In this document: one piece after another, positions 8,075-42,573 of the stretch
Layout of the letters: each line of letters starts with the position of its first letter
Numbering within the stretch: position 1 is the first letter of the stretch
Assembly (NCBI GenBank): GCA_004212735.1
Contig: SHBD01000009.1
Coordinates: 1 to 64,000, forward strand
Direction of reading: 5' to 3'
Source of the DNA: SAR116 cluster bacterium
Lineage (GTDB): Bacteria > Pseudomonadota > Alphaproteobacteria > Puniceispirillales > Puniceispirillaceae
DNA: 64,000 nt
Program-made: the position numbers and the translations under genes
The notes under the pieces: generated by a model
Databases searched by the model: none
What the model was told of the DNA's origin: nothing
The model's input: the letters and a program-made list of their open reading frames with translations, nothing else

Positions 8075-8596
8075 ATGATCGCCAAACTTATCAACCGCAG
8101 CTCAGGCGGTGATTTTGGCCGGTTGGCGCGCTATCTGGCCGCCGCCAGTGAGCCGGGTGAGACGCTGGATCGCATGTGGCTGGCAGGGTGCGTTCCCGGC
8201 CATGATGATGATGGCGTGACCCTGTTCCGGGTCGATTCAGATACCGCCATGCTGGAATGGGTCGAAACCTTGCGCGACACCGAACCCACCGGCGATGACA
8301 GTGATGAATTGTTGCTGGATGGGGCCAATATGCTGGCCATGCATCGTGTCGGTGACAAGGTCTTCCTTGGCGTTACCGGCATCAATAATCACGGCTTTAC
8401 CCTGTTTGATGTCAATCTGGATGACCCGGCCGCGACCAACCCGGCCGAAATCCTGAAAAGGCCAAACCAAACAGATCAGGGTGCGGATGAAACCGCCCCC
8501 TTTTTTATGACCCGGCAACAGGCAACCATCACACCGGCCGTCCATCACATCATCTGTCAATACGGGTCAATTGCCTTTCATCATTATAAAAAATAA
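8075..8596 (+). CDS. hypothetical protein
   Basis: I do not recognise this 173-aa acidic protein. It starts MIAKLINRSSGGDFGRLARY and contains a repeated Asp-rich theme (HDDDGVTLFRVDSD, NNHGFTLFDVNLDD), perhaps two related beta-hairpins. The start is set at ATG 8075, after the 13-bp repeat tract; the frame is open further upstream but only through the repeats. It has no signal peptide or membrane segment. Its last 13 bases overlap the end of the convergent metallopeptidase gene. Confidence 0.5.
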   Translation: MIAKLINRSSGGDFGRLARYLAAASEPGETLDRMWLAGCVPGHDDDGVTLFRVDSDTAMLEWVETLRDTEPTGDDSDELLLDGANMLAMHRVGDKVFLGVTGINNHGFTLFDVNLDDPAATNPAEILKRPNQTDQGADETAPFFMTRQQATITPAVHHIICQYGSIAFHHYKK

Positions 8597-11500
8597 TAGA
8601 GGGGTGTATCGATCAGGCTTTCCAACCCGTCAAAATCCGTCCCGGGCGCACCATAGAGGAGCTGGATCATATTAATGTCATTCTGCGTGATGGTTCTTTC
8701 CTCTCTTTGACCATAGCCCATGATGCTGTTCAATGTCTTACGTTCTGTCATGTCCTTGGGGAATAGGTCCGGCAGACTGAACGTATCATGAAAGGGATGG
8801 TCAAGCGCCAGATGATGCCCGATTTCGTGGATATAGGTTGTCAGGGGGCTTAATGAACTTACAAAGATACTATTATCCCCTCCCGAAGGTTGCGCAGAGG
8901 GAAATACGAATACACGCATCAGGCCGATGGAATGGTCATTATCTGCAACCTCGATAAATTTGATGTTGGCCACCGCCTCCCAGGCGCGCATCGCGCGTTC
9001 CGCCAAGTCATGATAGCGGTCGAAATATTCATCTTCTATGTCGACTCCCGGGGGCAATCCGGGGGAATCTGACCGCAGCAATGACCAGCTGATGATCAGT
9101 GGCCCGTCATCCGGCATGTGATAGGCGGTACCGTCAGTCAGCAGTTTCATATAGGCCTTCTCGGCATCGCTCAAATCAGGGCGCTGTGCCAGTGCCTGTT
9201 CAAACTGCGCGGCGGTGTATGAGTAGTTTACCCGCGACACGTCTTGGCGCGTCGCCCAGGTTTTTTCAAGCTCCAGATCCTGCACCGTCAGTGCCAGATT
9301 GATGGTCTCGATGCTGCCGTCCCGCGCGCTGCGGGTGATTTGTAGATCATAGGTGCCGTCATCGTCCTGATCGCGGTGATCCTCAGCATCCAGCAGCGGA
9401 TAGTCGCCTGCATCCACGCGCCCATTGCCATCCGCGTCCAGCGGCACGAACCAGATTTTGCCTGTTCGCGCATCAACCCGAAAAAATTGATTGTCCGGCG
9501 CGCCGGCCACCGGTGCCATCGCGAAGGTGCCCGTGCCATCCAGATCAATCACCGGCTTTGTCAAAGGATGGTTTTCATAAACAGCCGCCGTCTCATCACG
9601 GGTTGTGGGGGCGGGCGTAGGTGTAGGTATGGGCGTCGGCCTAGGCGTTGGTGGGGCTGGCGGGGGTGGCGTAGGCGGGGGTGCGGTCACAGTGACAGGA
9701 TCGCTGATGATCTCCTGCCGATTGCCAAGGCTATCGGTGACAATGGCCACGGCGTTATAGGTGCTGGGGGATGTGGGGGTAAAGCTGGTGGCGATGCCAG
9801 CCTGATTGCCGCTACTGTCACGCCAGACATAGTCCACGCTGCGGATGCCGTCCTGATCGGCAATCGGGGTTGTCTGGCTGACATGAAGGATTGTGTGGGT
9901 CTGCACCTCGTCTGACAGCGCCGCGCCGCCCGCGCCGGCTATGGTGATCGCTCCCGTTGTCGGATCATCTTCGTTGGTCAACTGGACGGTGATGGTCTCC
10001 CGGACTTCGTTGCCGGCATCGTCTGTCGCGGTGATCCGCAGGGTGATTTCACCGTTCGGATTATCCCGGCTCTCATAATCGAATGTCTTGCCTGCCCTGA
10101 CGAACAGCTTGCCGTTCAACACCACAAACCGGTCATCGACCTGCCAGTTCCCGCCCCGCTGGCTTTGGATTATCAATGATTGCAGATCACCTTCTGGATC
10201 ATCTGCCACCACGGCAATGCCCGTATCAATGCGCTGCGTGACGCTGGTGCCGATGGTCTCGGCCACCTTTATCGGCTGGCTTGGCGGCGTGATGCTCAAG
10301 GTTGGTGGTTGGTTTACTGGTGGCGGTGTGTTGGGCATCACAACAGGAGGGGCTGGCGGTTGGTCCACTAGCGATATGGGTTTTTCCAGCGGTGGTATTT
10401 CCGGCGGTGGGTCTTCTGGTACTGGCACCACCGGCGCTACGGCAACCGTCAGGGTGAAGGGTACGGCGACTGGATTACGCCCCTCGCCATCACCTATGGC
10501 TTGGATGCTGACGCTATGCGTACCAACCTTTGACTGATCCAGCGTGACACTGCGTTTGAGATACAGGTCATAGACGCCGCGCTGAACCACACCGCTGCTG
10601 TCCGTCACCGCGCGATATTCAAAAAGGCTGTCAGGTGCCAGTGCCGCCAGCCCGATCGTACCCAGACCATCATCAATAATCGTGATCCGCGCCAGTGCTG
10701 CAAAATGAACACTTCCCACATCCAGCTCATATGTTGACCGGTTGATCGCCACCGCGCCCGGCTTTTTGTTTTCTGCCAGTGGCGGCTGTTTTGGTGGCGG
10801 CTGTTTTGGTGGCGGCTGTTTTGGTGGCGGCTGTGCGGGTGCCACCTGTTGCGGCTGTTCGGGTGATGGCGGTTCTTTATCTGGTGCCTTTGTTTTCTGC
10901 TCATAAAGGCGATTGATCTCATCTATATAGGCCTGTCCGGCCTGGCCTGCATTCAATGGCGCATCACCCCATCTCTGCAACAGCTGATTGGCGGTCTGGC
11001 CAAGCAGAAAAAGCTGTTGACGATATGGTGCCATGTCAGCAGAAAGCGGATCATTCCGCGTCACATCAATCGTCGTGGGCAGGCCAAGATGTTCTGAAAA
11101 AGCCGCCTTTTGTGCTGGCGTTGGTCTGAAACCATAGACACGTCCCAGAATTTCGGTTAGCGGCGAAATAATCGTTGATCCCGGCGGCGCACGCCAATAC
11201 TCACCAGCCCCATAGCCGACATTATCCCTATCAGATGTAAGGTCTTCCCCGTGGTCAATCGCATTGGCAAGATCGGCACAAAGAATATAATCGGCAAACC
11301 GACTTTCGGCACTAACTTCATAAGTGCCATCACGGCGCGATGTCCCGACATAGATCTTGACCGGACCTTCATTTGTACCAACCGGCCTGAGAAGAAACAG
11401 GCTGGCACCCTCAACCGGACCATCAATAACCTTGCCGCTAAGGCTCATTGTGTCGCTAGTGTTACCAGTGGGTGGTTGATTGCTCACCACTGGGGTTGTG

Positions 11501-11964
11501 CCACCACCATCGTCAACAGGATCACGCTGCGGTTTGCTCACCACTGGGGTGCTACCACCATCGTCAACAGGATCACGCGGCGGTTTGCTCACCACTGGGG
11601 TGCTACCACCCCCGCCACCCCCGCCGCCGCCACAGGCGGCGAGGATCAGCGCCCAGAACGACATGCCATAGGGCGTCAGGCTTGATGTTGTGAGGTTTGT
11701 TGTTTTTGAAGCGGTCTCTGACGGAGCGACCTTTGCCGGGATGTTCCCTGTCTGCCCGTTGCGGGTGCGGTGTGTCGACAAAACCGGCACCGACCGAACG
11801 CCGGTCTCAGCCCATACCGCTCCGTGACTGAAAGCACGTCTTTCTGCCGTTTCTTCGGGTCGCTGACCGGCCTTTCGGCTGGCCTTGCGACGATGTGGTT
11901 CCGTTGCGCTCTGCATGGCATGACCGGCACCGGCAACATTTATGTCGGGCCGATGCACCCCCAA
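8584..11964 (-). CDS. large lipoprotein zinc metallopeptidase (metzincin-like)
   Basis: This protein of about 1126 aa is predicted to be lipid-anchored to the outer side of a membrane. A lipobox-like LILAAC followed by a poly-Gly run lies near residues 107-120, unusually far from the first Met, so the true start may be further in (ATG 11916 or 11664 are alternatives). Pro-rich repeats (PPPKQ) and several Ig/cadherin-like beta modules with DPEGD and DADGNGRVD-type calcium motifs follow. The catalytic domain is at the C-terminus: zinc motif HEIGHHLALDH at residues 1046-1056 and Met-turn SIMGYGQ after it. The segment YENHPLTKPV before the catalytic domain recurs in the second metallopeptidase at 29.9-33.3 kb, so the two are paralogues. 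Substrates are unknown. Confidence 0.75.
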   Translation of the reverse strand: MGVHRPDINVAGAGHAMQSATEPHRRKASRKAGQRPEETAERRAFSHGAVWAETGVRSVPVLSTHRTRNGQTGNIPAKVAPSETASKTTNLTTSSLTPYGMSFWALILAACGGGGGGGGGSTPVVSKPPRDPVDDGGSTPVVSKPQRDPVDDGGGTTPVVSNQPPTGNTSDTMSLSGKVIDGPVEGASLFLLRPVGTNEGPVKIYVGTSRRDGTYEVSAESRFADYILCADLANAIDHGEDLTSDRDNVGYGAGEYWRAPPGSTIISPLTEILGRVYGFRPTPAQKAAFSEHLGLPTTIDVTRNDPLSADMAPYRQQLFLLGQTANQLLQRWGDAPLNAGQAGQAYIDEINRLYEQKTKAPDKEPPSPEQPQQVAPAQPPPKQPPPKQPPPKQPPLAENKKPGAVAINRSTYELDVGSVHFAALARITIIDDGLGTIGLAALAPDSLFEYRAVTDSSGVVQRGVYDLYLKRSVTLDQSKVGTHSVSIQAIGDGEGRNPVAVPFTLTVAVAPVVPVPEDPPPEIPPLEKPISLVDQPPAPPVVMPNTPPPVNQPPTLSITPPSQPIKVAETIGTSVTQRIDTGIAVVADDPEGDLQSLIIQSQRGGNWQVDDRFVVLNGKLFVRAGKTFDYESRDNPNGEITLRITATDDAGNEVRETITVQLTNEDDPTTGAITIAGAGGAALSDEVQTHTILHVSQTTPIADQDGIRSVDYVWRDSSGNQAGIATSFTPTSPSTYNAVAIVTDSLGNRQEIISDPVTVTAPPPTPPPPAPPTPRPTPIPTPTPAPTTRDETAAVYENHPLTKPVIDLDGTGTFAMAPVAGAPDNQFFRVDARTGKIWFVPLDADGNGRVDAGDYPLLDAEDHRDQDDDGTYDLQITRSARDGSIETINLALTVQDLELEKTWATRQDVSRVNYSYTAAQFEQALAQRPDLSDAEKAYMKLLTDGTAYHMPDDGPLIISWSLLRSDSPGLPPGVDIEDEYFDRYHDLAERAMRAWEAVANIKFIEVADNDHSIGLMRVFVFPSAQPSGGDNSIFVSSLSPLTTYIHEIGHHLALDHPFHDTFSLPDLFPKDMTERKTLNSIMGYGQREERTITQNDINMIQLLYGAPGTDFDGLESLIDTPLYYFL
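10781..10825. repeat. 3 x 15-bp repeat in the metallopeptidase linker
   Basis: Three perfect copies of ggcggctgttttggt plus a partial one encode PPPKQ units on the minus strand. Confidence 0.9.
11482..11620. repeat. 54/51-bp repeats after the lipobox of the metallopeptidase
   Basis: About 2.6 copies start with gctcaccactgggg at 11482, 11536 and 11587, with spacings of 54 and 51. They encode STPVVSKPPRDPVDDGG-like units between the poly-Gly run and the first folded module. Spacing stays a multiple of three. Confidence 0.9.
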
Positions 11965-28628: not shown

Positions 28629-29606
28629 CTAGTAATAAAGCTCGCGCGGGTCGGTGATGCCAAGGGCGGCATACATTTCCGCAACCTGTTCCCCATAGCC
28701 GTTATACATCTGGGTCGGCACACGCTGGCCGGTGCCAAGCAGGCGTTCGGTGCGTTGCGGCCAGCGCGGATGCGGGATGCCCGGATTCACATTCGCCCAG
28801 AACCCATATTCATTGCCGGCAAGCTGTTCCCAGAAAGAAACCGGCCGTTCATCGGTGAAGGTAAAGCGGACAATCGATTTGATCGATTTGAACCCATATT
28901 TCCACGGCGTCACCAGACGGATGGGCGCGCCATTCTGGTTGGGAAGCGGCTTGCCATAGATGCCCGTGGCCAGAAACGCCAGTTCGTTCGTCGCCTCGTC
29001 AATGGTCAGCCCCTCAACATAGGGCCAGGGATACCAGCTCTGTTTCTGGCCCGGGGCAACCACCGGATCCATGAAGGTTTCCATACGCAGATATTTGGCA
29101 CCAGCCGCCGGCCGCGCAAATTTGACCAGATTGGCAAGCGGCACACCCGACCAGGGGACAGCCATCGACCACGCCTCGACACAGCGGTGCCGGTAGAGCC
29201 GCTCCTCGGTGCCGCCGATGCGATCAACGAGATCGGTCGCATCCAGGGTCATTTCAGCCTCGACCATGCCGTCAATGGTCACGGTCCAAGGATCCGACTT
29301 CATTTTGCGGGTTTTTTTCCAGATATTCTTGGACGAGCCAAACTCATAGAAATTGGTATAGGTGGTGGCCTCTTCCTCGTCGGTGATGGCGCGGTCAAGG
29401 GTGTAAGCCTCATTACGGGCAAAGGGATAGCCGCCAATGGCAGCAAGCGCACTACTGGCGAGAAACCCCGGGCCAGCAAGCGCAGCACCAAGGCCAAGAC
29501 CGGTAAAGCCAGCCGCCTTCAGCCATTGCCGCCGGTTCATATAGACAGCTTCAGGCGTGGCTGCGGCCTCGGACAATTCCCAGCTGCGTTTCGATTTGAT
29601 CACCAT
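28629..29606 (-). CDS. msrP: protein-methionine-sulfoxide reductase catalytic subunit
   Basis: MsrP (YedY) is a periplasmic molybdopterin enzyme that repairs oxidised methionines in envelope proteins. The protein is about 325 aa from ATG 29606. A twin-arginine signal (MNRRQWLKAAGF, Arg25-Arg26) is followed by the oxidoreductase fold, with the Mo-ligand Cys142 in YRHRCVEAWSMAVPW and the C-terminal NPGIPHPRWPQ. The haem partner MsrQ, usually adjacent, is not here. Cofactor genes mobB-moeA-moaD-moaE are about 14 kb away. Confidence 0.95.
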   Translation of the reverse strand: MVIKSKRSWELSEAAATPEAVYMNRRQWLKAAGFTGLGLGAALAGPGFLASSALAAIGGYPFARNEAYTLDRAITDEEEATTYTNFYEFGSSKNIWKKTRKMKSDPWTVTIDGMVEAEMTLDATDLVDRIGGTEERLYRHRCVEAWSMAVPWSGVPLANLVKFARPAAGAKYLRMETFMDPVVAPGQKQSWYPWPYVEGLTIDEATNELAFLATGIYGKPLPNQNGAPIRLVTPWKYGFKSIKSIVRFTFTDERPVSFWEQLAGNEYGFWANVNPGIPHPRWPQRTERLLGTGQRVPTQMYNGYGEQVAEMYAALGITDPRELYY

Positions 29607-29911
29607 TTTGACCTCCGATTGATTCCCATTTGGCTGTTGCTGGTGCTGCCCGGAATAGGGATGGGCATCGCGCCATGCGCTGTTCATGTCTCACCATACT
29701 CGGCGTAATATAACCGGCGTAACATAATCGGCGTTAGCAAGTCAGCGTAATACACCAATCAATAGACCAATTCAGCCAGCTAATTATGGCATGAGTGAGG
29801 CAGTAGTGATATGGGGGATGGCATGGGGATAATAAGAGGGGGATATAACAATGGGGCCGGGTCGGCAGACAGATCACGGGCCATTGGCGGCAGGGCGCGC
29901 ACGATAGGTGA
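29607..29911. other. gene-free interval upstream of msrP
   Basis: There is no convincing gene. Four degenerate 14-bp copies (cggcgtaatataac-like) at 29701-29756 lie upstream of msrP. The rest is AT-rich with no clear terminator for the metallopeptidase gene that ends at 29912. Confidence 0.6.
29701..29756. repeat. 4 x 14-bp degenerate tandem repeat upstream of msrP
   Basis: Consecutive 14-bp units begin cggcgtaat, cggcgtaac, cggcgttag and cagcgtaat. Confidence 0.75.
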
Positions 29912-32815
29912 TCAGAGCATTTCAGGGGCCAGCGGGTCGAGGTCAAAAGGGTCGAGGTCAAAAGGGTCGAGGTCAAAAGGGTCGAGGTCAATCACCTCGA
30001 TGGTGTTGTCGACAAAGTAATTGGCAAGGACGGGACTATCAGGCGATGAGGAACGCCAATCATAGTCATCAAGAACGCCGAAAATCTCCGATTTGTCCTC
30101 GGCCTTGTAGAGGATTGTCTCTAAATGTTCATCATTGTCGACATTCCTGACCTCGAACCAGACATGCGTTGCATCATCGAGATCGATGAGAAGCATATCT
30201 TTCTTCGGAATTTCAGAACCAGAGTTGAAATTAGACAAAAAGTCACGCCTCACAAATTCCAGAGTCACCAAGCCCTCATCATCCAAATCGTCAACCACCC
30301 AATTATGCAGCTGGTTTTTGCGATAAACATCATGCCCGTATTCCGCCACCGTGACAGTCTGGCCAAGCACATCAAAATGTTCACCATCCAGTTGCCCCGC
30401 CCCGGTAATGATGGGTTGCTGTCCAGAATTCAGGTTTTGTTGGTGACTGGCAACCAAGATCAGGGCATAGATTTCGGCATCCGCACCATCACCATTCAGC
30501 AGATAGATGCCTTCATCAGTTTGTTTGTACCAGCCGTGCGTTACCTCATAGCCAAGACCGATTTTGTCATGAGTGGGAACAAAATCGACAATCACATGCG
30601 CTTTGTCGGCGAAAGGTGACTGCCCCCGATAGACCAGAAAAACATCATTTCCGGAATTTGCCATCGTCGTGAAACCGCCACTCATGGCAGTGGGATTTGA
30701 GCCGGCGACAAGCACATCATCACCCGCACTACCCCGCAAATCAGGGTTGATAAAACCAGAACCAAAGTAGCGTGAGTTTGCCGAAATATAAGTGCTCGCC
30801 TCTCCAGCGTTGATGTAATCATCACCGCCAAAACCTCTACCACCGCTCCCATCGGTCGGGCCCAATTCAATCAGATCATCTTCGTCCGTGCCTTCGCGCA
30901 CTCCAAAAACTCCCTCCCGCCACGTAACATATGTCCATCTGGCATAGCCGACCACACCATTCAATGTCAGTTCCAAACCATAGTTTCCCGGTTCATAGGG
31001 GGTGAAGTCTGCATCGCGGCTGACCAGCATGCTCTCTTCGCCCACTTGCAGATACCATTTGAAACTGGCGGATTTTGCCTGATGATCAACGGATATCTCA
31101 TTCCCGACACTGCCTCCCTCTCTGGTCAGGCGATAAGTTAAAATCTTTAACGTGAGTGGCGCAAGACGCGGACCATCACCAGACGCTTCGAGATGCACAT
31201 GATATTGCAGAGGTGTGCCCGTCAGAGGTATATCGTTCAACGGCGCGTCAGTGCTATTCTTGGTGACACGCATTTGATCGAATGACTTGATGTTACTGTA
31301 TGGCAAAAGCGCCAGAAAAGATGGCAATTCGGGAATGGTAACTTTGTTGGTTCCCCTGCCATCATCGAGTGTCAGAATTTTAATGCCAGCCCAGTCAACA
31401 GACCAATTGGCGAACGGGATAAGAACAGATAACTCGGTGGTCAATAATTTGGTAACACCATCAAGAAAGGCAAAGATGGATGGTTTATGGTCTACAACCT
31501 CTTCCTCAATGGCCTGTGGCTGACCGCTCCATTCCCGAATGCGCGCCGGTGCCGCCTCGCCGGGCCGGCCATAGAGATGCTGCAGCGCACGAATGTCCGC
31601 CGGCTGCCATGTTTCAATGGTGGTATTATAGGCCATGATGGTGTCAACGAAATCCTCCTCCTTTCTCCTTTGAAGTTCCTGCGGTGTCTGCCCTTGCTCA
31701 CGGATGTTGGTGAAAGGACGATTGTTCAATCCATCCCAGGGATGTTTCAGCCCCAGAATGTGACCCAGTTCATGACGGAACAGATATTCCAGATTTGAGA
31801 TGAAACTTATTTTTTGAGTCCTGAAGGAAATCCAGCGATGATTTGAGTCATGATCATGCTGGTGGTCATCATGTCCATGGGTATGAGGCTGCTCATAAGA
31901 GGGAAAGCCGCTGACACGGCCGCCGATATCGAAGCCCTCTCTGTCGCCCGAAAATATGTCCTGCACCTCGATCAGAATGTCGGGTGTGATGCTATCGACT
32001 TGGTTTCTGTCAGCCGTGGTGAGGCCATTGCCGATCTCGACAAATCTGACATTGATGAGTTTTTCCAGCTCCGCCATCGCCTCTGACATATATTTACGGA
32101 TTGTTGCGACATAGCGGGCGATGAGGACCGTGCCTTTATGCACCAGAGTGTCTGCCACTTTGGAATAGGCAGGTGCGATGTTACCGGTAATCACTCTCGT
32201 GATCAGATCATCCGCAATCTGGATGGCCCATTTCAGCACCAGGGGACCGGAAGACGGCATCGACCACGCGCCGCCATGAATGAGCTGTTGTGCGGTTTCA
32301 TCGCTTGGCTCGCTTGACTGAAGCAATCTTCCGTGACCGGGGTTGCTGGTCTCATTGACAAGGTCATTAACCCTGATGTTCAGGCGGTTGGTGACCCGCG
32401 CGCCATTGGTATCAGTGGTAAAAAATTCCAGCTCGTAGATATTGTTCCGATCCCGGTCACTGGGTGCCTCAAAATCAAAATGCCGGAAGTTATTATCCGT
32501 TGGTGAACCAGCAAAAATCAATTTGCCGTCATGCAGCCGAAACAGGGCGTTATCGCCATAATTGTCTGACAACTGCCAGTCTCTGAATAGATAGGTCGAA
32601 TATTGCAGAATGGGCTTGTCCAGCGGATGGTTTTCATAGATGTGGTGGGTGGGAGTGCCAGCGGAGGACATTTCATGTCGCTGGGTGTCATCCTGCTGGG
32701 TGGTTTGGCCTTGACGCTGCTCCGGCCGGGAGAGCGCATTCAGGCCTCCCTGACTGCCTTGGGTGTAATAATTCGCGTTATCCGACTGTGATACATCATT
32801 ACGCCGATACATCAT
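29912..32815 (-). CDS. metallopeptidase catalytic part, separated from its lipoprotein N-terminus by a frameshift
   Basis: This 967-codon frame carries a metzincin-like protease. An N-terminal YENHPLDKPIL module is shared with the first metallopeptidase. The zinc motif HELGHILGLKH is at residues 348-358 and the Met-turn DTIMAYN follows. C-terminal beta modules with GGRGFGGDDYINAGE-like calcium turns and a DLDPF repeat complete it. Taken alone it starts MMYRRNDVSQ inside a 16-bp duplication and has no export signal. Removing one 16-bp copy joins it in frame to the lipoprotein leader at 32799-33338, giving one surface lipoprotein of about 1140 aa. As written, the protease part would be untranslated or stay in the cytoplasm unless translation re-initiates at ATG 32815. 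Confidence 0.8.
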   Translation of the reverse strand: MMYRRNDVSQSDNANYYTQGSQGGLNALSRPEQRQGQTTQQDDTQRHEMSSAGTPTHHIYENHPLDKPILQYSTYLFRDWQLSDNYGDNALFRLHDGKLIFAGSPTDNNFRHFDFEAPSDRDRNNIYELEFFTTDTNGARVTNRLNIRVNDLVNETSNPGHGRLLQSSEPSDETAQQLIHGGAWSMPSSGPLVLKWAIQIADDLITRVITGNIAPAYSKVADTLVHKGTVLIARYVATIRKYMSEAMAELEKLINVRFVEIGNGLTTADRNQVDSITPDILIEVQDIFSGDREGFDIGGRVSGFPSYEQPHTHGHDDHQHDHDSNHRWISFRTQKISFISNLEYLFRHELGHILGLKHPWDGLNNRPFTNIREQGQTPQELQRRKEEDFVDTIMAYNTTIETWQPADIRALQHLYGRPGEAAPARIREWSGQPQAIEEEVVDHKPSIFAFLDGVTKLLTTELSVLIPFANWSVDWAGIKILTLDDGRGTNKVTIPELPSFLALLPYSNIKSFDQMRVTKNSTDAPLNDIPLTGTPLQYHVHLEASGDGPRLAPLTLKILTYRLTREGGSVGNEISVDHQAKSASFKWYLQVGEESMLVSRDADFTPYEPGNYGLELTLNGVVGYARWTYVTWREGVFGVREGTDEDDLIELGPTDGSGGRGFGGDDYINAGEASTYISANSRYFGSGFINPDLRGSAGDDVLVAGSNPTAMSGGFTTMANSGNDVFLVYRGQSPFADKAHVIVDFVPTHDKIGLGYEVTHGWYKQTDEGIYLLNGDGADAEIYALILVASHQQNLNSGQQPIITGAGQLDGEHFDVLGQTVTVAEYGHDVYRKNQLHNWVVDDLDDEGLVTLEFVRRDFLSNFNSGSEIPKKDMLLIDLDDATHVWFEVRNVDNDEHLETILYKAEDKSEIFGVLDDYDWRSSSPDSPVLANYFVDNTIEVIDLDPFDLDPFDLDPFDLDPLAPEML
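29934..29993 (-). repeat. 4 x 15-bp repeat at the 3' end of the metallopeptidase gene
   Basis: Three perfect copies of gggtcgaggtcaaaa and a fourth differing at the end encode DLDPF units just before the stop codon. Confidence 0.95.
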
Positions 32816-32821
32816 TACGCC
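32790..32821. repeat. perfect 16-bp tandem duplication causing a frameshift
   Basis: gatacatcattacgcc occurs twice in direct succession (32790-32805 and 32806-32821). The unit is not a multiple of three and lies inside the lipoprotein metallopeptidase coding region. With two copies the upstream frame reads RRNDVSA then stop. With one copy it reads RRNDVSQSDN and continues. Confidence 0.97.
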
Positions 32822-33338
32822 GCACTGGCTCTTCTGCTGGCTGTGAATTTGAGTCTGGCTTTGAGTCAGAGGTTGGCTTGGTGTCTGGCTTTGGGTCTAG
32901 GACTTGCGGTGCTGGCTCCTGCGGTGCTGGCTCCTGCGGTGGCTTGGTGTCTGACTTGGTGTCTGGCTCCTGCGGTGCTGGCTCCTGCGGTGGCTTGGGG
33001 TCTGGCTTTGGGTCTGGCTTGGGGTCTGGCTTGGGGTCTGGCTTTTTGTCTGGGGCTTGCGATGCTGCAACCGCCGGACCGCCGCCGCCACCGCCGCCGC
33101 CACCGCCGCCGCCACAGGCCGAGAGCGCCGTGCCGGACAGCAGAACCAGCAAAAGCGGTGTCAGGCGATCAGGCCGGGCCGAAGATGTTGATGCGGGTGT
33201 GAGTGCAGGCGCGGCATAACCAGAGACAGGCGCAAGCCGGCGCACAGAAACGCCGCCAGAATTGCCACTAGAATTGCCACTACCATTACCGCTGCAAGTG
33301 CCACCAGAAATGTCGGAAATTAACGATGCCATAAGCAA
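32799..33338 (-). CDS. lipoprotein leader and Pro-rich linker of the split metallopeptidase
   Basis: The 179-aa frame has a late signal sequence (RLTPLLLVLLSGTALSAC, Cys near residue 74) with a poly-Gly run after the lipidated Cys. A long linker of DPKP and PQEPA repeats ends ...EEPVRRNDVSA. The same late lipobox plus poly-Gly layout is seen in the metallopeptidase at 8.6-12 kb. The stop codon at 32799 arises only from the 16-bp duplication, so this is the 5' half of the gene ending at 29912. As sequenced it would yield only a short lipid-anchored Pro-rich peptide. Confidence 0.8.
   Translation of the reverse strand: MLMASLISDISGGTCSGNGSGNSSGNSGGVSVRRLAPVSGYAAPALTPASTSSARPDRLTPLLLVLLSGTALSACGGGGGGGGGGGGPAVAASQAPDKKPDPKPDPKPDPKPDPKPPQEPAPQEPDTKSDTKPPQEPAPQEPAPQVLDPKPDTKPTSDSKPDSNSQPAEEPVRRNDVSA
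32880..33060 (-). repeat. Pro-rich linker repeats
   Basis: Imperfect in-frame units encode DPKP and PQEPAPQEPDTK segments of the lipoprotein linker. They vary in order and number, unlike the perfect repeats at gene edges. Confidence 0.75.
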
Positions 33339-33426: not shown

Positions 33427-34629
33427 TTATTCCAGCGACGCGACAACCCGCGCGATGCGCGCAAGCGCTGTCTCCAGCACCGCATCAGATTCGGCGTAGG
33501 AAATGCGGAAACAGGGAGACAGGCCAAAGGCAACGCCGGGAACAACCGCAACCTCACCAAGCTCCAGCAGCGCCGCCACAAAATCACTATCCGTTTCAAT
33601 GACACCGCCATCGGGACGGCGCCTGCCAATCAGCGCCGAGATATCGGGATAGACATAAAAGGCACCATCGGGATTGAGACAATACACCCCCTCCATGGCG
33701 TTGAGCGCATCCACCACCATCGCCCGCCGCCGGGCAAAGGCGGCCAGATTGTCAGCCATGAAATCGGTCGGGCCATCCAGCGCGGCAATGGCCGCATGCT
33801 GGGCAATGCTGTTCGGACAGGAGGTCGATTGCGATTGCAGCTTTGCCATCGCCCGGACCAGCGGTGCCGGCGCGGCGCAATAGCCGATCCGCCAGCCGGT
33901 CATACAATAGGATTTGGAAACGCCATTGAGCGAGAGAATGCGGTCGGCAAGATCCGGCGCGACAGCCCGCATGGTGGCAAATTCAAAACCGTCATAAACC
34001 AGATGTTCATAGATATCATCGCTAAGCAGATACACCTGGGGATGGCGGCGCAGCACCTCGGCAAATTGGGCCAGATCAGCAGCGCCATAGCCAACACCGC
34101 CCGGGTTTGACGGGCTGTTCAGGATCAGCCATTTGGTGCGCGGCGTAATTGCCGCCTCAAGCTGGGCCGGAGTCATTTTCAGATTGGCCGCAATCGGACA
34201 TTCGACAAAGACCGGAACGCCGCCCGCCACCTCTACAATGCCGGCAAAGCTGACCCAATAGGGGGTGGGGATGATCACCTCATCACCGGCATTGACCGTC
34301 GCCATCAAGGCATTGAACAGCACCTGCTTGCCGCCGGTGCCGATCGAGATCTGATCCGGGGTGACGGCAACACCATTCTCGCGCGCAAATTTGCGGACAA
34401 TCGCGGCTTTCAGCTGGGGGATGCCATCGACCTGGGTGTAGCGCGTGTGGCCATCACGCATCGCCCGGACAGCCGCCTCGACGATATGCGGCGGGGTGGG
34501 GAAATCCGGCTCGCCAGTGGCAAGGCCGATGACATCGCGGCCAGCCGCCTTCATATCCAGCGCCATGCCGGAAATCGCCACGGTGGGCGACGGCGCAATG
34601 CGTTTCAGACGGTCGGAGATGATGTCCAT
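33427..34629 (-). CDS. aspartate/aromatic aminotransferase (class I, PLP)
   Basis: This type I aminotransferase (400 aa, MDIISDRLKRIAPSPTVAIS) belongs to the Ib aspartate aminotransferase group common in alphaproteobacteria. It interconverts aspartate and oxaloacetate and may also act on prephenate. The PLP lysine lies in NGVSKSYCMTGWRIGY, with LNSPSNPGGVGY and the C-terminal substrate Arg in CFRISYAES. It is divergent from the DarG-like gene across a repeat-rich gap. Confidence 0.93.
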   Translation of the reverse strand: MDIISDRLKRIAPSPTVAISGMALDMKAAGRDVIGLATGEPDFPTPPHIVEAAVRAMRDGHTRYTQVDGIPQLKAAIVRKFARENGVAVTPDQISIGTGGKQVLFNALMATVNAGDEVIIPTPYWVSFAGIVEVAGGVPVFVECPIAANLKMTPAQLEAAITPRTKWLILNSPSNPGGVGYGAADLAQFAEVLRRHPQVYLLSDDIYEHLVYDGFEFATMRAVAPDLADRILSLNGVSKSYCMTGWRIGYCAAPAPLVRAMAKLQSQSTSCPNSIAQHAAIAALDGPTDFMADNLAAFARRRAMVVDALNAMEGVYCLNPDGAFYVYPDISALIGRRRPDGGVIETDSDFVAALLELGEVAVVPGVAFGLSPCFRISYAESDAVLETALARIARVVASLE

Positions 34630-37563: not shown

Positions 37564-39804
37564 ATGGATGATATCACCCCGAACAATGATGCAAATGTTG
37601 CCGTTGGTGCGGCTGATGGCGGAACAGGCGCGAAGATGGGCGCGAAGATGGGCGCGGATATGGGCACTGATTCAGGTGCAAAGGCCACAACGGATAATCT
37701 GATCATCACGCGGCCACGCGCGCCCGCCGAGTTCGATCTGCAATCCGAGTTCAAACCGGCCGGTGACCAGCCAGATGCGATTGCCGAGTTGATTGCCGGC
37801 ATCAAGGAGGGTGAGCGCGATCAGGTGCTGCTTGGCGTGACCGGATCGGGCAAGACGTTTACCGCAGCGCATGTGATCAAGGCGATCAAGCGGCCAACGC
37901 TGATCCTCGCGCCGAACAAGACACTGGCAGCGCAGCTCTATGGCGAGATGAAAGCGCTGTTCCCGGATAATGCGGTCGAATATTTCGTCTCTTATTATGA
38001 TTATTACCAGCCCGAGGCCTATGTGCCGCGCTCGGACACCTATATCGAGAAGGAATCCTCGATTAATGAGCAGATCGACAGAATGCGGCATTCAGCAACG
38101 CGCGCGCTGTTGGAACGCGATGACGTGATCATCGTTGCCTCGGTGTCCTGTATCTATGGCATCGGGTCGGTGGAAACCTATTCAACGATGACGCAGATTC
38201 TGGCTGTCGGCGAGGATTTCCCACGGCAGGATCTGCTGCGCAAATTCACCGAGCTGCAATACCGGCGCAATGATACCAATTTCGTTCGTGGTGCTTTTCG
38301 GGTGCGCGGGGATTCGGTGGAGCTGTTTCCGGCCCACCTTGAGGACCGAGCGTGGCGGATCTCGCTGTTCGGTGACGAGATTGAGGCGATTTTCGAGATT
38401 GACCCCCTGACCGGTGAGAAAACCCGGACGCTGGACAGCATCACGGTTTTTGCCAATTCGCATTATGTGACACCGCGCCCGACATTGCAGCAGGCCTGTA
38501 AACAGATCAAGGAAGAGTTGAAGGTCCGGCTGGCCGAATTCACCCAGCAGAACAAGCTGTTGGAAGCGCAACGGATCGAACAGCGCACACAGTTCGATGT
38601 CGAGATGATCGAGGCAACCGGCGTGTGCGCCGGGATCGAGAATTACTCGCGCTATCTGTCGGGGCGGGGGCCAGGCGAGCCGCCGCCGACATTGTTTGAA
38701 TATCTGCCAGACAATGCGCTGCTGATCATTGATGAGAGCCATGTCACCGTGCCGCAGCTTGGCGCGATGTATAAGGGCGATTTCGCACGCAAATCGACAT
38801 TGTCGGAATATGGGTTTCGGCTGCCATCCTGCATGGATAACCGGCCGCTGAAATTCGAGGAATGGGAGGGCTTCCGCCCGCAGACGATCTTTGTCTCGGC
38901 AACGCCCGGGCCGTGGGAAATGCAACGCACGGGCGGCGTGTTTGCCGAACAGGTGGTGCGACCAACCGGGCTGATCGACCCGGAATGTATTGTCCGGCCA
39001 ACGACCAACCAGGTTGATGATATCATCGCCGAAAGCCGCGAGATGGCGGCCAGGGGCAACCGCGTTCTGATCACCACCTTGACCAAGAAAATGGCCGAGG
39101 CGCTGTCGGAATATATGTATGAGGGCGGCATCAGGGTGCGCTATCTGCATTCGGATATCGACACGCTGGAACGGATCGAGATTATGCGCGATTTGCGGCT
39201 TGGCGTGTTTGATGTGTTGATCGGGATCAACCTGCTGCGCGAGGGGCTGGATATCCCCGAATGTGCATTGGTGGGGATACTGGATGCCGACAAGGAGGGC
39301 TATCTGCGGTCAAAGACATCGCTGATCCAGACGATTGGCCGCGCGGCGCGTAACATTGAAGGGCGGGTCATCCTCTATGGCGACAGGGTCACCGACTCGA
39401 TGCAATATGCGCTGGATGAGACCAACCGGCGGCGCGCCAAGCAACAGGCCTGGAACGAGGCCAATGGCATCACCCCGGAATCAGTGAAAAAGGAAATCGC
39501 CGATGTGCTGAATTCAGTCTATGAGCGCGGCGACCATCTGACACCGGAGGCCGGCGGCAAAGCGGGCGCTCTGGTCGGCAGCAACTTCAAGACGGTGATC
39601 GCCGATCTGGAAAAGTCAATGCGCGAGGCCGCCGGCAATCTGGAGTTTGAGGAAGCCGCCCGGCTGCGTGACGAAATCAGACGCATGGAAGCTGCCGAGC
39701 TGGGGCTGACCGCACCCGGTATGCCAAGCAGCATCGCCCAGAACCACGGCTTTCCAGCCGGCACCCCGGGCGCACCCCCGAAGAAACGCAGCAGACGTCG
39801 ATAA
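37564..39804 (+). CDS. uvrB: excinuclease ABC subunit B
   Basis: UvrB is the damage-verifying helicase of nucleotide excision repair. Walker A is GVTGSGKT at residues 91-98, the beta-hairpin region has [12 protein letters not shown], helicase motifs [10 protein letters not shown] and [11 protein letters not shown] follow, and the C-terminal UVR domain is [18 protein letters not shown]. The conserved protein begins near residue 56 ([15 protein letters not shown]). The preceding 55 residues are an extension partly built from 12-bp repeats (GAKM), with several possible in-frame ATG starts and no strong ribosome-binding site before 37564. Confidence 0.97.
37627..37662 (+). repeat. 3 x 12-bp repeat in the uvrB N-terminal extension
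   Basis: Two perfect copies of ggcgcgaagatg and one variant occur in frame; each copy carries an in-frame ATG. Confidence 0.92.
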
Positions 39805-40596: not shown

Positions 40597-42573
40597 ATGG
40601 GTGACCCGGCCACCACAAATGCGACGTCTGGTGCTACGTCTGGAGCTACGTCTGGAGCAACCTCTGGAGCAACATCGGGCGATGAGACGGGCCGGCCGGT
40701 GAATTTGCCACCCGACATCTGGCGCGGGATCGAGTATCTGAAGAGCGAGTTGAAAACCCTGTCGAGTGATCCAGGCGTTTACCGGATGCTGAATGGCGTT
40801 GGCGAAGTGCTGTATGTCGGCAAGGCCCGTAATCTGGCGCGGCGTGTCGGCAGCTACACCCAGCCGAACCGGCTTTCGAACCGGATCATGCGGATGGTCA
40901 GCGAGACCGAAAAGCTGGAGGTGATTGTCACCAAGTCAGAGATCGAGGCGCTGCTGCTTGAATCGAACCTGATCAAGAAGATGAAACCGCGCTACAATAT
41001 TCTGCTGCGCGACGATAAGAGCCTGCCACAGATTTTGCTGACCGCCGATCATGAGTTCGGACAATTGACCAAACATCGGGGCCGCAAAACCCGCAAAGGT
41101 GAATATTTCGGCCCCTTTGCCTCCGCCGGCTCAGTCAACAGGACGGTGGCCGATCTGGCGCGCGCCTTCATGCTGCGGACCTGTTCGGATTCGGTCTTTG
41201 CCAGCCGCACACGGCCCTGCCTGCAATATCAGATCAAGCGTTGTACCGCGCCCTGTGTCGGGCATGTGACAAAGGGTGACTATGCCAAACAGATGGCGCA
41301 AGCGCACCGGTTCCTGTCTGGCGGGTCGGCGGAAATACAGCGTGAATATGCCGCCCGCATGCACAGCGCCGCAGACAAGCTGGAATTCGAGACAGCCGCA
41401 ATCTGGCGCAATCGTATCCGCGCGTTGACCGGCATTCAGGCGAACCAAGATATCAACCTGCCGAACCTGCCAGATGCGGATATCATTGCCCTTGCCCGCA
41501 GTGGTGACCGATCCTGCATCCAGATTTTTTTCATCCGGTCCGGCTCCAACTACGGCAACCGGTCCTATTTTCTGACGCATAATCAGGATAGCGAGGCCGA
41601 TGAGGTACTGGGAGCCTTTCTCGGCCAGTTCTATGAGGATAAGGAACCGCCCCCGTATATTCTGGTCTCGGACGACCCGGCGGAAAAGGCGCTGCTTGAG
41701 GATGCTTTGTCGGAGGCAGCCGGGCGCACCGTGCATATCTCGCGCCCGCAACGCGGTGCCCGCACCAAATTGACGACGATGGCAAGCCGCAATGCCGAAG
41801 AGGCGCTGGCCCGGCATATGGCAAACGCCGCCTCGCAGAAACGGCTGTTGGGGGAGTTGGCCGATGCGCTTGATCTGGAGGAACCACCACAGCGTATCGA
41901 GGTCTATGACAATTCGCATATTCAGGGACGACACGCCGTTGGCGGCATGATTGTCGCCGGGCCGGAAGGTTTCAACAAAGCCGCCTATCGCCGCTTCAAC
42001 ATCCGTGATGAAGGCAAGCATGCCACCGAACAGGGAGATGATTTTGCGATGATGCGCCAGGTCATCAACCGCCGGTTCGAACGCGCGCTGAAGGAGGACC
42101 CAGACAGACTGTCCGGCAACTGGCCCGATCTGATGCTGATTGATGGTGGCAAAGGCCAGCTCTCGGCGGTCACAGATGTTATGGATGACCTTGGCATCAC
42201 CGACATTGCCGTTGTCGCCATTTCAAAGGGGCCCGACCGCAATGCCGGACGAGAGCAGTTTCACATCAGGGGCCGGACCAGCTTTACCCTGCCGCCACAT
42301 TCATCGGCAATGCATTTCCTCCAGCGGCTGCGCGATGAATCGCATCGCTATGCGATTGGCACACATCGCGCCAAACGCCAGAAAAGTGAACTGACAAGCC
42401 CGCTTGATGCTGTTCCCGGGATTGGGCCAAAGCGGAAAAAGGCGTTGCTTGCACATTTTGGTTCGGCACGCGCTGTGTCGGCAGCCGGGCTGAAGGATCT
42501 GGAAGCTGTCGAGGGCATCTCGAAAAAATTTGCGCAACAAATTTATGATTGGTTTTATAGTGGGCAATCATAG
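40597..42573 (+). CDS. uvrC: excinuclease ABC subunit C
   Basis: UvrC makes both incisions in nucleotide excision repair. The GIY-YIG nuclease domain (SSDPGVYRMLNGVGEVLYVGKARNL) comes first, then the UvrB-binding UVR segment (KLEFETAAIWRNRI). The RNase-H-like C-terminal nuclease (EVYDNSHIQGRHAVGGMIV, DLMLIDGGKGQL) and helix-hairpin-helix (VPGIGPKRKKALLAHFG) follow. ATG 40597 has AAAGGGG upstream; ATG 40564 is an alternative. About 25 Thr/Ser/Gly/Ala residues from 12-bp repeats precede the conserved domain, paralleling uvrB. Confidence 0.97.
   Translation: MGDPATTNATSGATSGATSGATSGATSGDETGRPVNLPPDIWRGIEYLKSELKTLSSDPGVYRMLNGVGEVLYVGKARNLARRVGSYTQPNRLSNRIMRMVSETEKLEVIVTKSEIEALLLESNLIKKMKPRYNILLRDDKSLPQILLTADHEFGQLTKHRGRKTRKGEYFGPFASAGSVNRTVADLARAFMLRTCSDSVFASRTRPCLQYQIKRCTAPCVGHVTKGDYAKQMAQAHRFLSGGSAEIQREYAARMHSAADKLEFETAAIWRNRIRALTGIQANQDINLPNLPDADIIALARSGDRSCIQIFFIRSGSNYGNRSYFLTHNQDSEADEVLGAFLGQFYEDKEPPPYILVSDDPAEKALLEDALSEAAGRTVHISRPQRGARTKLTTMASRNAEEALARHMANAASQKRLLGELADALDLEEPPQRIEVYDNSHIQGRHAVGGMIVAGPEGFNKAAYRRFNIRDEGKHATEQGDDFAMMRQVINRRFERALKEDPDRLSGNWPDLMLIDGGKGQLSAVTDVMDDLGITDIAVVAISKGPDRNAGREQFHIRGRTSFTLPPHSSAMHFLQRLRDESHRYAIGTHRAKRQKSELTSPLDAVPGIGPKRKKALLAHFGSARAVSAAGLKDLEAVEGISKKFAQQIYDWFYSGQS
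40624..40680 (+). repeat. 12-bp repeat in the uvrC N-terminal extension
   Basis: About five copies of acgtctggagct, decaying at the right end, encode TSGA units in frame. Confidence 0.93.

Follow-up and report, generated by a model that had tools for sequence, protein, structure and literature searches.

The DNA analysed here (the window) is a 64,000-nucleotide stretch of one contig of an SAR116 cluster bacterium. Between genes for an aminotransferase and an MsrP-like protein it encodes two overlapping reading frames that together make up a lipoprotein metalloprotease (Table 1). An Rfam scan of the window found one tRNA and nothing else.

Genes at the locus

The upstream frame encodes the lipoprotein leader. 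Its ORF opens with TTG at 33338, and the ATG at 33332 is likely the true start. The lipobox reads LSGTALSAC-GGGG, and the same layout occurs in four intact homologues (L017, L018, L019 and L022).

The downstream frame encodes the protease. The zinc motif HELGHILGLKHP and the Met-turn DTIMAYN identify it as a metzincin, and it passes the Pfam PF00413 cut-off (27.3 versus 24 bits). Its C-terminus weakly matches the serralysin model NF035945 (E 1.4e-4, residues 692-755), at 21 bits against a curated cut-off of 500, so it does not qualify as a full-length serralysin. Read from 32815, the protein has no signal peptide; nor does it fit the class of proteases secreted by type I systems without an N-terminal signal, because its close intact homologues bear lipoprotein signals. 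The Shine-Dalgarno sequence at this start is weak (-2.1 kcal/mol, versus a mean of -2.6 for random 22-mers). A 15-bp in-frame repeat of 3.9 copies (29934-29991) encodes the extreme C-terminus (LDPFDLDPF...), and homologues finish in similar acidic-hydrophobic tails (PDVM, MDVM, PEML). No close relative of the protease was found among solved structures. AlphaFold2 gave a pLDDT of 31 from a two-row alignment of both metzincin domains in the window, and the model was not used.

The second metzincin gene of the window encodes 1,126 aa with the lipobox LILAAC-GGGG and the motif HEIGHHLALDHP. The preliminary description regarded it as an intact paralogue whose single frame covers lipobox, linker and protease, and so it is, but a distant one and no recent copy: identity to the split protease is 24% over 395 aa (E 2e-12).

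Table 1. Coordinates of the split gene, its neighbours and its paralogue in the window
Feature	Position	Strand	Description
Intact distant paralogue	8584..11964	-	One frame covers lipobox, Ig-like domains and metzincin domain; repeats in its linker come in multiples of 3
MsrP-like molybdopterin protein	28629..29687	-	Downstream syntenic marker; the same gene follows in G002, G014 and G003
Metzincin (M10/serralysin-like) protease frame	29912..32815	-	967 codons; RTX-like C-terminus; the HExxHxxGxxH motif and Met-turn are preserved
16-bp perfect tandem duplication	32790..32822	.	2.06 copies (TRF); TAA TGA enters the leader frame via the frameshift
Truncated lipoprotein leader	32799..33338	-	Long N-region, h-region, lipobox LSGTALSAC then poly-Gly, Pro/Asp/Lys-repeat linker; TAA at 32801-32799
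Aspartate-type aminotransferase	33427..34629	-	Upstream syntenic marker

A 16-bp duplication separates the two frames

At the junction, TRF reports a repeat of period 16 with 2.1 copies and a 100% match (unit GATACATCATTACGCC), which confirms the tandem duplication of the preliminary description except that its start had been placed 2 bases early. Both copies are identical, and an exact tandem pair of unit 16 is expected by chance about 2e-5 times in 64 kb (computed). The leader ends in ...VRRNDVSA-TAA and the protease frame begins MMYRRNDVSQSDN, encoding MMYRRNDVSQ, as had been described; the leader stop region and protease start region overlap by 17 bases. Since 16 mod 3 is 1, the frames are offset by exactly one extra unit, and the copy number of the repeat sets the frame, as at a contingency locus.

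The ancestral gene and its relatives

We defined the orthologous slot by the aminotransferase gene upstream and the msrP-like gene downstream. There, a complete 2,753,527-bp genome of the same family (G014) carries a single 2,182-aa ORF that joins lipobox and protease in frame; over 956 aa it shares 37% identity with the protease of the window. In a genome of another genus, a single 663-aa ORF in this slot likewise combines lipobox and protease (G054:C30). Fused ORFs at the same place in two other genera indicate that one fused gene is ancestral and the split is derived. The comparison bears out the earlier claim that the duplication divides leader from protease, and measured against the intact ancestral gene the window copy carries the frame lesion of a pseudogene.

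Two congeners have the locus assembled (G002 and G003). Their aminotransferase genes are 87.5% identical to each other and 84.6-84.8% identical to that of the window genome. Both keep a leader part and C-terminal pieces, interrupted by stops and frame changes, and no catalytic motif was recovered in the remnants at the slot. Because only decayed remnants persist there, the gene has been lost elsewhere in the genus. A search for close homologues in sets of genome contigs and viral contigs gave no matches.

Lipobox-plus-metzincin genes were surveyed across the order by profile search and frame check. Intact members occur in G014 (three), G061 and G054:C30, in addition to the window paralogue. 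Broken members are the 16-bp case described here (genome G000), three loci in G054 and one in G013. In G054:C90 a 7-bp repeat in 3.1 copies (L021:4737-4758) splits the lipoprotein and protease frames, which are offset by one repeat unit. G054:C112 has a frameshift and no repeat, G054:C196 has two in-frame stops, and G013 has an in-frame stop past the zinc motif. Another candidate, G056:C5, was rejected as a split protease, because runs of N mark an assembly gap there and the lipoprotein is not a protease. The variety of lesions among homologues suggests that selection on the family is either relaxed or favours loss. Two of the three frameshift lesions lie at tandem repeats, which is the one observation favouring a switch but may simply be how insertions arise in these genomes. 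No frameshifting tract is present in the leader-protease linker of the intact L017, L018, L019 and L022.

Short tandem duplications in the genome

This genome is rich in perfect tandem duplications (unit length 10-60 bp). About 900 kb of its 2.49 Mb were surveyed and contained 81, with 25 of these in the window. One congener had 1 in 213 kb and the other 0 in 210 kb, the latter including 20 kb of odd composition that probably consists mainly of N. In 200 kb of each of two further genomes there were 7 (G014) and 11 (G019). The higher the local G+C, the denser the duplications (Spearman 0.53). In the window and other contigs of the genome (L062, L067, L072, L073, L075 and L129) the units are mostly of 10-16 bp and cluster in G+C-rich stretches, and some lengthen the N-termini of housekeeping proteins, as in UvrB (37627-37656) and UvrC (40633-40658). 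A LysE-like transporter gene is immediately preceded by about ten 7-bp GGACAAA/GGACACA units (L067:2105-2190, G000:C10), which may form a variable promoter or a variable N-terminal tract.

Units inside called genes are nearly all multiples of 3, as expected if selection purges those that shift the frame. Among 79 frameshifting exact repeats (unit of at least 7), the protease is the sole convincing gene split; three other candidates resembled chance or array-upstream cases. In 139 conserved gene segments (155 kb) compared with relatives there was no internal frame break, and seeming breaks lay upstream of true starts or came from wrong-frame calls. Random frame errors in the assembly are thus rare, and random assembly error is an unlikely cause of the split.

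Age and fate of the split gene

The protease frame runs for 967 codons without a stop and its active site is intact. Neutral substitution of about 1% is expected to create roughly one stop over this length (computed), so the uninterrupted frame implies a young lesion, below about 3% neutral divergence. For comparison, nucleotide divergence of the aminotransferase gene from the congeners is about 15%. The further decay expected of a pseudogene was found in the congeners only and not in the window gene. The stop count would look the same for a recent, one-way loss and for a gene that is on from time to time.

We favour, with a probability of about two in three, the reading that a surface metalloprotease gene was recently inactivated by the 16-bp linker duplication, a one-way loss that has left an early pseudogene. 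The duplication would have arisen, probably by replication slippage, in the linker of a gene for a lipid-anchored enzyme, as one among many short duplications that this genome appears to generate. Translation from the normal start would end after about 180 residues and yield a lipoprotein stub. Left with neither a signal peptide nor a good ribosome site, the protease frame would no longer place the enzyme on the surface. To this extent the earlier statement that the duplication switches the gene off finds support as a prediction from the stub, the leaderless protease and the poor ribosome site. The lesion would have been tolerated because the gene is dispensable in a clade that has repeatedly lost or broken it. 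Two points temper this reading: the undecayed protease frame fits a very recent loss and a switch that is often on equally well, and a second repeat-split homologue exceeds what decay alone strictly requires.

The preliminary description had proposed instead that slippage at the repeat could cause phase variation. On this reading, RecA-independent slippage or misalignment between the two 16-bp copies would turn the gene off at two copies and on at one, in a population mixed for the surface protease. The unit is indeed not a multiple of 3, it lies between anchor and catalytic domain, and the halves are otherwise intact. The 7-bp tract of G054:C90 splits a homologue in another genus in the same manner, and precise loss of one 16-bp copy should be physically possible. 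Reversible phase variation via single tandem duplications is also known in pneumococcal capsule genes (Waite 2001, 2003, as cited in PMC4022640 and PMC4243769). This repeat, however, has 2.06 copies, short of a multi-copy hypermutable tract, and Table 1 of PMC4235727 ranks two-copy tracts as proto-mutable to mutable, at about 1e-9 to 1e-5 per division. Intact orthologues have no frameshifting tract at the same place, and congeners have lost the gene. Scans of genome and viral contigs, sets with no second genome of the species, for exact one-copy and two-copy junctions had no match elsewhere, and thus no second allele was seen. The proposal is not borne out by these observations, and we regard it as doubtful. 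A broader version, in which linker duplications act as a diffuse, sequence-independent on/off switch for surface metalloproteases of the SAR116 type, with different genera having their own repeats at comparable positions (16 bp x2 in this genome, 7 bp x3 in G054:C90), would be a long shot.

The second copy could also be an artefact of sequencing or assembly, or a minority variant that entered the assembly. The genome is a draft of 66 contigs, and a 16-base overlap between contig ends is short enough for the ends to have been joined one after the other. Against this stand the conserved gene segments without internal frame breaks and the nature of the repeats themselves: perfect duplications of 10-27 bp occur naturally and often in this genome, many of them harmless with 3-6 copies, and 16 is among the common unit sizes. 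We consider an artefact improbable. Very improbable, in our view, is a functional split with two products, the lipoprotein stub and a protease lacking a leader, in which re-initiation at ATG 32815 would produce the protease and its RTX-like C-terminus would direct it into type I secretion. The overlapping stop and start regions, the serralysin match and the presence of an LssB-type type I secretion ABC transporter would suit such an arrangement. It is conserved in no relative, however; the ribosome site at 32815 is weak, and close intact homologues have the lipobox in the protease frame. Type I export of the protease is itself unlikely because the HlyD-type adaptor gene of the sole clear type I operon, the LssB-type one, has a single in-frame TAG (L135:7297-7299, at about 167297 in G000:C12), with the frame open on both sides.

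If switching did occur, it would be similar to the cap3A type of duplication switching in pneumococcus and would amount to phase variation of a surface protease in abundant ocean bacterioplankton, and cells could differ in their attack on particulate protein or in phage avoidance. If there is no switch, the locus is a clean gene loss by tandem duplication in a duplication-rich lineage, caught before further decay.

Comparison with known systems

The split gene resembles a young indel pseudogene, with a single frame lesion, an otherwise intact remainder and decayed orthologues in congeners; it differs in that the lesion is a perfect duplication whose precise loss is still possible. With the serralysin family (M10B, NF035945) the protease shares HExxHxxGxxH, the Met-turn and an RTX-like C-terminal region. 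Unlike serralysins, the gene has an N-terminal lipobox with poly-Gly and linker, and the match reaches 21 of the required 500 bits.

The simple-sequence contingency loci of Haemophilus, Neisseria and Campylobacter are likewise frameshifting repeats in genes for surface proteins. Those loci have many short units that are kept in the gene, whereas the 16-bp unit here has two copies, and intact orthologues lack the repeat. In the pneumococcal genes cap3A, cap8E and tts, spontaneous tandem duplication switches the capsule (Waite 2001, 2003, as cited in PMC4022640 and PMC4243769). There too a single short exact duplication within the ORF breaks the frame and its precise loss is conceivable. Switching and reversibility were reported for pneumococcus, whereas the present case comes from a marine alphaproteobacterium with a single genome in a single state and concerns a protease rather than a capsule enzyme.
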